NCBI RefSeq assembly: GCF_040214835.1 | Contig: NZ_CP157874.1 | Coordinates: 3,104,001-3,168,000 of the forward strand | DNA from: Pseudomonas asiatica | Lineage (GTDB): Bacteria > Pseudomonadota > Gammaproteobacteria > Pseudomonadales > Pseudomonadaceae | Length of the DNA stretch: 64,000 nt | Direction of reading: 5' to 3' | In this document: one piece after another, positions 4,795 to 60,760 of the stretch | How positions within the stretch are numbered: the stretch's first letter is position 1 | Layout of the letters: the number at the start of each line of letters is the position of its first letter | The notes under the pieces: generated by a model | Database searches by the model: none | The model's input: the letters and a program-made list of their open reading frames with translations, nothing else | Told to the model about the DNA's origin: nothing | Position numbers and translations under genes: made by a program

Positions 4795-4867
4795 CCAGGC
4801 ACTGCAAAACCAAAGCCCTACCATCAGGGCAATTGACGGCAGCCCCGCCCCATGGTCTCCTTATGCC

Positions 4868-5070
4868 TCGCGTTCAGGTGCCCCCGATGGGGGTGAAACG
4901 GGAAACCGGTGCGTCACAGGCCCTCAAGCAGGGCCGGACAAGGCCGGTGCTGCCCCCGCAACGGTAAGCGAGCGAAGCGTCTGTACCACTGTGCCCGGTC
5001 ACCCGGCATGGGAAGGTGACGCCTTCCAGGAGCCTGGCTCCTCCTCGCAAGCCCGGAGACCGGCCTGGCG
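4868..5070 (+). promoter_or_regulatory. Cobalamin (adenosylcobalamin) riboswitch
   Basis: A B12-binding leader RNA upstream of cbtB. Visible conserved blocks are GGGAAACCGGTGC (about 4910-4922), GCTGCCCCCGCAACGGTAAG (about 4949-4968), the GGAAGGTGACGCC helix (about 5011-5023), and the B12 box GCCCGGAGACCGGCC (about 5051-5065). Order and spacing match the family. In this class ligand binding usually lowers expression of cobalt uptake or B12 synthesis genes. The expression platform lies between 5070 and 5175; I could not decide between terminator and start-site sequestration. Confidence 0.92.
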
Positions 5071-5175
5071 TTCATGAACACCCCGCGGTGGGCGGGCGCT
5101 GTTGCATTCCCCTGGGCTGCCACGCTCGGGGCTGCCGCGCTTGCCCGTTGCCCACAAAAAGCAGAGGAACGCGTC

Positions 5176-58351: not shown

Positions 58352-58377
58352 GCCCATCTACCGGCACACACAAAAAC

Positions 58378-58492
58378 TTGTAGGAGCGGCCTTGTGTCGC
58401 GATGGCTGCAAAGTAGCCCCGGCAAATCATGCACTAGTGCTGAAACCCAGGGGCCGCTTCGCGGCCCATCGCGACACAAGGCCGCTCCTACA
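58378..58492. repeat. REP pair 1 of the cluster
   Basis: TTGTAGGAGCGGCCTTGTGT and CGCGATGGCTGCAAAGTAGC face the inverted copy GGGGCCGCTTCGCGGCCC plus ATCGCGACACAAGG. One G is missing in the left loop compared with pair 2. Confidence 0.9.
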
Positions 58493-58610
58493 GGTACAGC
58501 GACAACCTCGAGATCAACGCTGCACCCGTGGGAGCTGCTTGCCGGCACAAACTCGTCGCTGGCTTCTTCATGCGTGAGCGCTGAGCACCATCTACCAGCA
58601 CACACAAAAC

Positions 58611-58728
58611 CTTGTAGGAGCGGCCTTGTGTCGCGATGGGCTGCAAAGCAGCCCCGGCAATTCATGCACTAGTGCTGAAACCCAGGGGCCGCTTCGCGGC
58701 CCATCGCGACACAAGGCCGCTCCTACAG
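58611..58728. repeat. REP pair 2 of the cluster
   Basis: Same arms and same spacer (CATGCACTAGTGCTGAAACC) as pair 1, so it arose by duplication together with the gene tail. Confidence 0.9.
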
Positions 58729-58779
58729 GTCCAGTGCATGCCTTGAGGGCGACGCTGGCCATGTGGAAGCAACTGTCTT

Positions 58780-58925
58780 GCTCAAATTCTAAAAGTTGGC
58801 GCGATCCCCTGTGGGAGCGGCCTTGTGTCGCGATGGGCTGCAAAGCAGCCCCAGCAATTTCAACTATTGCGCATCAATCCTGGGGCCGCGTTGCGGCCCT
58901 TTCGCGACACAAGGCCGCTCCCACA
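58780..58925. repeat. Composite REP element (BIME), copy 2
   Basis: The same 146-base unit as 16716-16861, including the flank GCTCAAATTCTAAAAGTTG and the spacer CAATTTCAACTATTGCGCAT. It is followed by GGTACAGCGACAACCTCGAG, which also follows REP pair 1 of this cluster (58493 onward). Confidence 0.88.
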
Positions 58926-59015
58926 GGTACAGCGACAACCTCGAGATCAACGCTACACCCGTGGGAGCTGGCTTGCCGGCGAAGAAGCCCGTACAGGCTG
59001 CATGAGGTTTGCGTA

Positions 59016-60575
59016 TCAACCCAGAAACAGCTTGTACGCCGGGTTGTCGGTCTCATCCCAGTACCGGTACCCCATCTCATCCAGCGCCAACGGCAACCCC
59101 GCCAACTCATCCCCCGGTACTTCCAGCGCCGCAAATACCCGTGCCTCCGCGGCACCATGGTTGCGGTAATGGAACAGGCTGATGTTCCAGCGCTTGCCAA
59201 GCCGCTCCAGAAAGCCCAGCAAGGCCCCCGGGCGCTCGGGGAATTCGAAGCGCAGCACCCGCTCGTCAGCGCCGGGCGCGGCACGGCCGCCAACGGTATG
59301 GCGCACATGCAGCTTGGCCAGTTCGTTGTCGGTCAGGTCCAGTACGCTGTAGCCCTGCTCGCGCAGGCTGGCCAGCAACTGATCGCGCGGGTCGTGCAGC
59401 GGGTGTGTCTGCACACCCACGAACAGCCGCGCCTCCTTGCCGGGGTAATAGCGGTAGTTGAACTCGGTGATCTGTCGCTTGCCCAGTGCCTGGCAAAAGG
59501 CGCGGAAGCTGCCCGGCTGTTCCGGAATGGTGACAGCGATGATCGCCTCGCGCTGCTCGCCCAGTTCGGCACGCTCGGCCACATGGCGCAGGCGGTCGAA
59601 ATTGACGTTGGCCCCGGAATCGATCGCCACCAGGGTCTGCCCCTGCACGCCGTCGCGCGCCACGTACTTCTTGATCCCGGCCACGGCCAGGGCCCCGGAC
59701 GGTTCGGTGATCGAGCGGGTATCGTCATAGATGTCCTTTATCGCCGCGCACAGCTCGTCGCTGCTCACCGTCACCACTTCGTCAACGAAGTGCCGGCACA
59801 GCTCGAAGCAATGGGCGCCGATCTGTGCCACCGCCACACCATCGGCGAAGGTGCCGACCTGCGGCAGGATCACCCGCTCACCAGCGGCCATGGCAGCCTG
59901 CAGGCAGTTGGAGTCCTCCGGCTCGACGCCGATCACCTTCACCTCAGGGCGCAGGTACTTCACATAGGCGGCAATGCCAGCGATCAGCCCACCGCCACCC
60001 ACCGGCACGAAGATGGCGTCCAGCGCCCCCGGGCGCTGGCGCAGGATCTCCATGGCCACGGTGCCCTGCCCGGCGATCACATCCGGGTCGTCGAACGGTG
60101 GCACGAAGGTGGCACCTTCGCTGTCGGCCAGTTTCAGCGCATGGGCCAAGGCGTGGGGGAAGCTCTCGCCGTGCAGCACTACATGGCCACCGCGCGAACG
60201 TACCCCTTCCACCTTCAGCGACGGCGTGGTGGTAGGCATGACGATGGTGGCCTTCATGCCCAGGTGCGATGCCGCCATGGCCACACCCTGGGCATGGTTG
60301 CCCGCGGAGGCGGTGATCACGCCGCGCTCGCGCTGCACGGTACTCAGGCGTGACAGGCGGGTGTACGCACCGCGGATCTTGAACGAGAAAGTAGGCTGCA
60401 GGTCTTCCCGCTTGAGCAACACCTGGTTGCCCAGGCTGGCAGACAACGCAGGCGCAGCTTGCAAGGGCGTTTCGATGGCCAGGTCGTACACCGGGGCGGC
60501 AAGAATGCGCCGCACCTGCTCCGACAGCAGTTGCTGGGGGGTGACGGTAGAACGAGGGCTGACGAAGCTGGTCAT
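59016..60575 (-). CDS. ilvA: Threonine ammonia-lyase (threonine deaminase), biosynthetic
   Basis: A 519-residue PLP enzyme that forms 2-oxobutanoate from threonine, the first step of isoleucine synthesis. The PLP lysine is Lys66 in PTFSFKIRGAY; the glycine loop is PVGGGGLIAGIA. Two ACT-like regulatory domains (about 335-420 and 430-519) bind isoleucine or valine, so this is the biosynthetic type. The start is ATG 60575 with AAGGAG 6 bases upstream. A leader peptide and attenuator upstream indicate control by charged tRNA-Ile. Confidence 0.95.
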   Translation of the reverse strand: MTSFVSPRSTVTPQQLLSEQVRRILAAPVYDLAIETPLQAAPALSASLGNQVLLKREDLQPTFSFKIRGAYTRLSRLSTVQRERGVITASAGNHAQGVAMAASHLGMKATIVMPTTTPSLKVEGVRSRGGHVVLHGESFPHALAHALKLADSEGATFVPPFDDPDVIAGQGTVAMEILRQRPGALDAIFVPVGGGGLIAGIAAYVKYLRPEVKVIGVEPEDSNCLQAAMAAGERVILPQVGTFADGVAVAQIGAHCFELCRHFVDEVVTVSSDELCAAIKDIYDDTRSITEPSGALAVAGIKKYVARDGVQGQTLVAIDSGANVNFDRLRHVAERAELGEQREAIIAVTIPEQPGSFRAFCQALGKRQITEFNYRYYPGKEARLFVGVQTHPLHDPRDQLLASLREQGYSVLDLTDNELAKLHVRHTVGGRAAPGADERVLRFEFPERPGALLGFLERLGKRWNISLFHYRNHGAAEARVFAALEVPGDELAGLPLALDEMGYRYWDETDNPAYKLFLG

Positions 60576-60613
60576 CGATGACTCCTTGGCTGTGTTCACG
60601 TTGCCCAGGAGTC

Positions 60614-60644
60614 AGAGAGAAGAAACCCGCCTCCAGGGCGGGTT
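60614..60644 (-). terminator. Attenuator terminator of ilvA
   Basis: On the minus strand AACCCGCC pairs with GGCGGGTT across the loop CTGGA, followed by TCTTCTCTCT. It lies between the leader peptide and ilvA. The 5' arm CCCGCC can alternatively pair with GGCGGG at the end of the leader peptide gene, giving an antiterminator. Confidence 0.75.
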
Positions 60645-60659
60645 CGGTGCACGTACGCG

Positions 60660-60722
60660 CTAGCCCGCCAAGCTGATAATGGCGGTAATAATAATGGCGT
60701 TGACGTGCTGGAAAGTATTCAT
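60660..60722 (-). CDS. Isoleucine-rich ilvA leader peptide
   Basis: A 20-codon reading frame, ATG 60722 to TAG 60660, too short for ordinary gene finding. The peptide contains the run IIITAII, that is five isoleucines and a threonine in seven residues, and a second Thr near the start. This is the mark of a transcription-attenuation leader for an isoleucine pathway gene. No ribosome site is seen; the likely promoter puts the transcript start only 2-3 bases before the ATG, so translation may be leaderless. Its 3' end (GGCGGGC before the stop) can pair with the attenuator arm. Confidence 0.72.
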   Translation of the reverse strand: MNTFQHVNAIIITAIISLAG

Positions 60723-60730
60723 GGGGTAGG

Positions 60731-60760
60731 AACTTAGCCGGTAGTGGAGCACAAAGTCAA
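60731..60760 (-). promoter_or_regulatory. Sigma-70-type promoter of the ilvA leader
   Basis: Minus strand: -35 TTGACT (60755-60760), 18-base spacer, -10 TAAGTT (60731-60736). The -35 box covers the stop codon of the upstream PACE gene. The predicted start is about 60724-60725. Confidence 0.6.

Follow-up and report, generated by a model that had tools for sequence, protein, structure and literature searches.

A probable isoleucine-responsive attenuator with a predicted leaderless leader peptide upstream of a second ilvA gene in Pseudomonas asiatica

How might a tiny isoleucine-rich reading frame with no visible ribosome-binding site control the ilvA gene that follows it? The question is raised by a minus-strand locus in the window, the 64,000-nucleotide stretch of Pseudomonas asiatica DNA analyzed here. 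Comparison and folding of related sequences indicate that the leader very probably senses isoleucine shortage via a tiny leader peptide. We consider it highly likely that the element is a ribosome-mediated transcription attenuator of the second ilvA, with a leaderless leader peptide and a response to Ile-tRNA.

The ilvA leader and Rfam P9

The gene upstream of the leader encodes a PACE efflux transporter (NF033664), lies on the same minus strand and ends with a stop codon at 60759-60757. This stop codon is overlapped by the −35 sequence TTGACT (60760-60755), which is separated by an 18 nt spacer from the −10 sequence TAAGTT (60736-60731), 8 nt 5′ of the leader ATG. The leader ORF (60722-60660, ATG 60722-60720), supported by conservation of its frame, reads MNTFQHVNAIIITAIISLAG* and has 20 codons followed by TAG. 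Alignment pairing and a terminator scan define the two terminator arms, strand 3 (AACCCGCC, 60644-60637) and strand 4 (GGCGGGTT, 60631-60624), with the loop CTGGA between them, and the scan places a T-rich tail at 60612..60623. The ilvA gene (59016..60575, ATG 60575-60573) has a good Shine-Dalgarno sequence, AAGGAG (60582..60587), whereas none is visible 5′ of the leader ORF. It encodes a threonine ammonia-lyase of 519 aa (NF009130, 995 bits; TIGR01124, 783 bits) with the domains PF00291 and PF00585, that is, a catalytic part and two C-terminal regulatory stretches. The original prediction had placed a 20-codon Ile-rich frame between promoter and gene, with a terminator stem behind it; all of these elements lie where it had put them, and the stem was recovered as one terminator-like site where 0.3 were expected in shuffled sequences.

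We found that the leader is covered by the Rfam family RF00624, "Pseudomonas sRNA P9" (60622..60695), with a score of 85 bits against a gathering cut-off of 43 and with all 74 model positions matched. The model begins at the Ile codons, so that the promoter, the AUG and the first half of the ORF lie outside it. By its name and type the Rfam entry is an sRNA gene, whereas here the match is part of the ilvA leader. P9 was reportedly first described by Livny in 2006. At gathering thresholds no other Rfam family was found at the leader, and elsewhere the window held only a Cobalamin riboswitch (4859-5082, plus strand, 97 bits). A T-box or another known leader family was rejected, since no covariance model of this kind matched over its gathering score. 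At 58360-59000, 3′ of ilvA, the motif GAALCRDG recurs in several ORF translations, which suggests intergenic repeats downstream of the gene.

Of 149 genomes from the genus, 109 contained an RF00624 match (105 above the cut-off), as did 71 of 148 from the family. The tool counted 8 of 19 genera; in one of them (g15) the matches were partial and judged to be chance, so the carrier genera number 7 rather than 8. We read 187 stretches with a match, the window included, which are part of all matches; removal of 8 chance matches in which the ORF is missing (L113-L117, L192-L194) and of 2 duplicates left 177 leaders. All 105 loci of the first set (the window and L001-L104) have an in-frame ATG 27, 30 or 33 nt upstream of where the RF00624 match begins. 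The reading frame and the Ile codons are conserved among the leaders, with I-I-T-A-I and L-A-G strongly kept in Pseudomonas. The conservation in Pseudomonas that the original prediction named as a check holds for frame, Ile codons and stems, and extends to several genera of the family. Many leaders have just 3 Ile codons, and in one genus the center of the peptide is Met-Ile-Ile or Met-Ile-Met, so the response there is possibly weak or mixed. In one genome a weaker second P9 match (G007:C18:100632-100695) lies 14 nt after the first; the pair is possibly a tandem duplication.

Directly downstream of the 177 leaders lies ilvA in 142 cases, and a SnoaL-like gene followed by ilvA in 11. Another 12 precede a SnoaL-like gene and then an AAA_33 kinase, 5 the kinase alone and 4 a SnoaL-like gene alone; for the remaining 3 (L005, L041, L056), whose downstream gene is unclassified, the leader is of the ilvA type, and we grouped them with the ilvA-linked leaders. 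A SnoaL/DUF4440 protein and/or an AAA_33 kinase follows the leader at L105-L112, L179-L191, L126, L135, L137, L140, L141, L154, L157, L159, L160, L168 and L172. The SnoaL-like gene separates leader and ilvA in some genera, with a stop/start overlap in L126 and L135.

The window genome has two full ilvA genes above the TIGR01124 cut-off and one RF00624 match, and no such leader was found in the upstream sequence read for the other ilvA. In each of 20 genomes picked for lacking an RF00624 match, a full ilvA over the TIGR01124 cut-off was single, whereas of 20 tested genomes that have one, 13 carried two ilvA matches at E 1e-120 or better. Among the 7 others, three (G003, G156, G220) carry the leader before a SnoaL-like gene instead. 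Among the 153 ilvA genes linked to a leader, 83 end early: 81 have a length that omits the regulatory C-terminus and 2 are apparently broken. Another 29 are full, 29 continue up to the edge of the fetched sequence with a length sufficient for a full gene, and 12 are undecidable. One short leader-linked IlvA that was checked (from the set that includes L032) consists of the catalytic domain alone. The window's own IlvA is full-length. The many leader-linked enzymes without a regulatory domain suggest a division of labor, in which an allosterically controlled ilvA would serve ordinary growth and an RNA-controlled ilvA would serve shortage.

Alternative RNA structures and simulated ribosome stalling

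The leader RNA folds with −37.7 kcal/mol, compared with −28.9 kcal/mol for shuffled sequences (z −2.55; 4 of 200 shuffles were as good). The ribosome-free fold consists of a hairpin within the ORF, an outer helix and the terminator. The hairpin pairs CCGCCA (strand 1, 60680..60685, from alignment pairing) with UGGCGG of strand 2 (UGGCGGG, 60664..60670) and is absent from the original prediction; by default it hides GGCGGG (60669-60664). Strand 2 can pair either with strand 1 or, as antiterminator, with strand 3. The outer helix, GCACGU (60708-60703) with ACGUGC (60654-60649), spans 60649..60708 and is predicted by the minimum free energy fold.

Covariation was assessed in 49 representatives, less than 90% alike, out of the 177 leaders. 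Helices 1:2 and 3:4 together are paired in 98.0% of cells (97.6% for 1:2 alone). Four of their pairs changed on both sides, compared with 1.3 in shuffles (2 of 500 reached 4), and their covariation score was reached by 0 of 500 shuffles. The clearest change is a G-C to A-U exchange in the middle of helix 1:2 in 6 of the 49, all before genes other than ilvA; there CCGCC has become CCACC and GGCGGG has become GGUGGG, so strand 2 still pairs with CCCGCC of strand 3 via G-U. That GGCGGG at the end of the leader can pair with the CCCGCC arm had been predicted, and six pairs of helix 2:3 are possible in 49 of 49 representatives. Covariation of this helix was sought in the same 49 representatives and not found, with shuffles matching the score in 500 of 500, because its arms hardly vary.

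We then simulated stalled ribosomes, masking bases to 12 nt past the first base of the A-site codon (an assumed footprint) and folding the RNA when strand 3 was just out. In the window leader, stalls at codons 10-14 (Ile Ile Ile Thr Ala; 60681..60695) gave the full 6-bp antiterminator, codon 15 (Ile) gave 4 bp, and codon 16 (Ile) and the stop codon gave none. In the simulation, the claim that a ribosome stalled at the Ile codons frees GGCGGG stands for codons 10-12; Ile 15 does so only in part and Ile 16 not at all. The simulation covered 165 distinct leaders, 148 from the family and 17 from outside it (2 of 167 were dropped because they did not match the pattern). Of these 165 leaders, 162 had at least one permissive Ile codon and none had a permissive stop codon; the latter agrees with the expectation that a ribosome at the stop masks GGCGGG. 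Ile makes up 27% of permissive codons in ilvA leaders and 11% of the others. The permissive window also holds Ser, Thr and Ala codons, which are frequent there; Thr and Ala are frequent because the stem is built of them.

These structures are consistent with the following mechanism. RNA polymerase would start at, or 1-2 nt from, the A of the leader AUG, and a ribosome could then load only at the free 5′ end, with no Shine-Dalgarno sequence. With no ribosome on the RNA, strand 1 would pair with strand 2, the 3:4 terminator would form and transcription would stop, leaving an RNA of about 110 nt, P9. When Ile-tRNA is ample, a ribosome at the stop codon would cover strand 2 and the terminator would form again. 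When Ile-tRNA is short, the ribosome would wait at Ile codons 10-12, covering strand 1 and leaving strand 2 free; strand 2 would then pair with the emerging strand 3, the terminator would be blocked and ilvA would be transcribed, to be translated from its own strong Shine-Dalgarno sequence.

The trp, his and ilv attenuators of Escherichia coli consist of a short ORF with regulatory codons, a hairpin within the ORF, an antiterminator, a terminator and a pathway gene. The ilvA leader shares with this type the ORF, the hairpin within it, the antiterminator, the terminator and the gene for a pathway enzyme. In contrast to the E. coli type it has no Shine-Dalgarno sequence, is predicted to have no 5′ UTR and would control a second ilvA copy, and the residue common to the ilvA leaders is Ile rather than Ile, Val and Leu.

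Promoter and predicted transcription start

The original prediction proposed a promoter TTGACT-18-TAAGTT that would start transcription 2-3 bases before the ATG. In all 154 distinct ilvA-linked leaders TTGAC starts 35-38 nt upstream of the ATG; as a control, the window contains 1816 ATGs, of which 5 are preceded by TTGAC at this distance and 13 by TTGAC or TTGAT. The best −10-like hexamer ends 6-8 nt 5′ of the ATG in all 154, and the spacer is 17-18 nt in 153, given the motif choice made by the script. A C precedes the ATG in 148 of 154 ilvA-linked leaders and in 168 of all 175 distinct Pseudomonadaceae leaders, compared with 38% of window ATGs. The DNA 5′ of the −35 is hardly conserved among the leaders. 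Of the 21 family leaders that belong to other genes, 18 lack TTGAC/T at that distance; the −10 is kept, and C precedes the ATG in 20 of the 21. A generic sigma-70 scan of the locus called no promoter, TAAGTT being a poor −10; the promoter call therefore rests on conservation. Positions, spacing and conservation thus speak for the proposed promoter, and the generic scan against it.

Sigma-70 transcription usually starts 7-9 nt past the −10, at a step from pyrimidine to purine. Such a step lies at the usual distance here, at C(−1)A(+1) (60722..60723), and makes the A of the AUG the predicted +1. From the conserved spacing and the CA step we infer that the transcript starts at this A or within 1-2 nt of it, and is leaderless by prediction; the start 2-3 bases upstream is replaced by the A of the ATG itself.

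Pairing with the anti-Shine-Dalgarno sequence is consistent with this. Its median was −2.4 kcal/mol for the 175 leaders, −1.7 for control DNA and −7.4 for 171 downstream genes, and the value for the window leader was −1.7. A Shine-Dalgarno-like core at −20 to −5 was present in 11 of 175 leaders, each time overlapping the −10 or directly preceding it. The claim that the leader lacks a ribosome site is upheld by this near-background pairing.

A leaderless leader peptide had been called unusual for an attenuator. It is not without precedent: in Sinorhizobium meliloti the trpL RNA begins directly with the start codon of its leader peptide (PMC7298713), and in Streptomyces the leader peptides of the leuL, trpL and ilvL attenuators are leaderless (PMC8079986), as given in the accessible portions of both papers. 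As far as these portions go, leaderless leader peptides are thus already known in Alphaproteobacteria and Actinobacteria; the present case differs in belonging to the Gammaproteobacteria, in its Ile codons and in having a predicted 5′ end. The Streptomyces lividans ilvL peptide, MRTRILVLGKRVG in the accessible portion of PMC8079986, is not alike to the Pseudomonas leader peptide. What we would call unusual is that the predicted leaderless start is conserved over a bacterial family, together with the breadth of genes under related leaders.

In the open-licence literature we found nothing that links P9 or a Pseudomonas ilvA leader with attenuation, nor a function for P9. There is no mention of ilvA in the accessible portion of Naville and Gautheret (2010), and the main texts of two start-site studies of P. 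aeruginosa and P. syringae (PMC3460626, PMC3247240) and of PMC3349714 mention neither ilvA nor leaderless transcripts nor a leader peptide.

Related leaders and competing explanations

Leaders outside Pseudomonadaceae were collected with a model from the family alignment (R1), a model from 15 outside leaders (R2) and a pattern scan. Among 244 genomes of the order R1 matched 20, including 6 from Pseudomonadaceae; in the class there were matches in 6 of 274, one being the window's own genome. Four loci from the order and class searches (L243, L249, L250, L265) were judged to be chance, with 3 outside R1 matches among the chance calls. R2 matched 27 of 390 and 5 of 369 genomes, with the window's genome in both of these overlapping draws, and scored the window leader at 42 bits even though it was built without it; since the members of R2 were first found with R1, the two models are not independent. 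The pattern scan gave at least 80 loci, of which 11 were read, and 8 non-Pseudomonas records among the matches listed were added. We left out L267, L268 and L269 as unclear cases, as well as L305, which is the same leader as L258. The outside set came to 38 distinct leaders.

TTGAC/T lies 34-38 nt before the start codon in 32 of these 38 leaders and at 31 nt in 1; it is missing in 5. The best −10-like hexamer is 6-8 nt from the start in 18, and C precedes the start in 11. With −10 and C poorly kept, leaderlessness is less sure outside the family. Pairing with the anti-Shine-Dalgarno sequence is weak here too (median −1.8). In L241 and L244, both before ilvA, the TTGAC spacing is absent. In L261 a GTG apparently takes the place of the ATG at the usual spacing from TTGACT, so AUG is not required as the first codon. 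Many of the outside peptides end in runs such as RIIIIIP, and it is mainly the Ile run that they share with the family.

By motif, the gene downstream is an adenylate-kinase-like P-loop protein in 24 of the 38, ilvA in 7, SnoaL-like in 2, isoleucyl-tRNA synthetase in 2 (Marinomonas), and GNAT, CimA-like and untold in 1 each; thus 27 precede genes without a known isoleucine link. Two of the 7 ilvA loci are from Achromobacter, a member of the Betaproteobacteria. The P-loop protein of about 172 aa (L231-L240, L242, L248, L252-L260, L280, L282, L304) is often named adenylate kinase in databases and has a weak FlaR-type match and a weak PADLOC match (26 bits). In L264 an Ile-run leader, MKISKTHTKGIIIRL, precedes a CimA-like gene (611 bits against a cut-off of 950); no codon was permissive in the stall simulation, which makes this a weak case. 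In Marinomonas spartinae (L323) and Marinomonas rhodophyticola (L337) an Ile leader, M..RIIIIIPRSGGFVVE, precedes an IleS2-type isoleucyl-tRNA synthetase. The M. spartinae enzyme is of the longer, eukaryote-like kind, with cytoplasmic enzymes as its closest solved chains; against two bacterial chains it scores 712 bits to 8c8v (1032 aa) and 330 bits to 8c9e (921 aa), which we take to be IleS2 and IleS1, respectively. The same genome has a second full ileS, and no terminator of the leader's pattern was found in the stretch fetched for it. The leader-linked Marinomonas gene is possibly tied to tolerance of synthetase inhibitors.

An attenuator whose transcript starts further upstream, from a distal promoter or by read-through from the efflux gene, with the leader reached by coupled or internal initiation, would fit the negative generic scan and the poor keeping of the −10 and the CA start outside the family; the overlap of the −35 with the stop codon of a same-strand gene makes read-through possible. 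We nevertheless think it unlikely, given that the spacing of TTGAC, the −10 (behind a 17-18 nt spacer) and CATG is maintained in nearly all 154 ilvA leaders while the DNA further 5′ is hardly conserved, that the leaders pair with the anti-Shine-Dalgarno sequence at near background, and that TTGAC/T recurs in 32 of 38 outside leaders. It is quite improbable that the switch senses not Ile-tRNA but another ligand, an antibiotic or a metabolite, to which the conserved peptide itself would respond by arresting the ribosome. The strong keeping of I-I-T-A-I and L-A-G in Pseudomonas, and the kinase, SnoaL-like and GNAT genes behind such leaders, would suit peptide arrest, but the RNA stems explain the Thr-Ala and Ala-Gly residues and vary in step with the peptide (ACCGCC/GGCGGG to ACCACC/GGUGGG), what leaders outside the family have in common is mainly the Ile run, and ilvA and an IleS2-type synthetase are among the downstream genes.

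The Rfam type of P9 would suggest an independent trans-acting sRNA, or P9 might be just the terminator of the upstream gene, with ilvA served by its own downstream promoter. An attenuated transcript would itself resemble an sRNA. The in-frame ORF with its Ile codons is present in all 105 loci of the first set, and P9 stays before ilvA while the upstream sequence differs, so we hold either version to be extremely improbable. P9 might in addition act in trans, as does rnTrpL, an attenuator RNA of S. meliloti (accessible portion of PMC7298713).

With an Ile-tRNA-responsive attenuator as our preferred reading of the ilvA leader, a broader reading would place it in a family of leaderless Ile-tRNA sensors, widespread in Gamma- and Betaproteobacteria and apparently undescribed. 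Such sensors may form one isoleucine-starvation regulon with the IleS2-type synthetase, P-loop, SnoaL-like and GNAT genes. Mupirocin and thiomarinol are inhibitors of isoleucyl-tRNA synthetase; under the broader reading such inhibitors might also be a natural trigger, and the leaderless start might keep the switch working when ordinary initiation is disturbed. We put this forward tentatively and consider it rather doubtful as a whole; the weaker promoter evidence outside the family slightly lowered its odds.

If the attenuator reading is true, it would give a function to the Rfam small RNA P9. It would also mean that leader peptides can be used without a ribosome-binding site in a bacterial group in which, to our knowledge, leaderless mRNAs are thought to be rare. 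Finally, it would provide a sequence signature for possible isoleucine-starvation genes in many proteobacteria, including those for P-loop kinases and SnoaL-like proteins.
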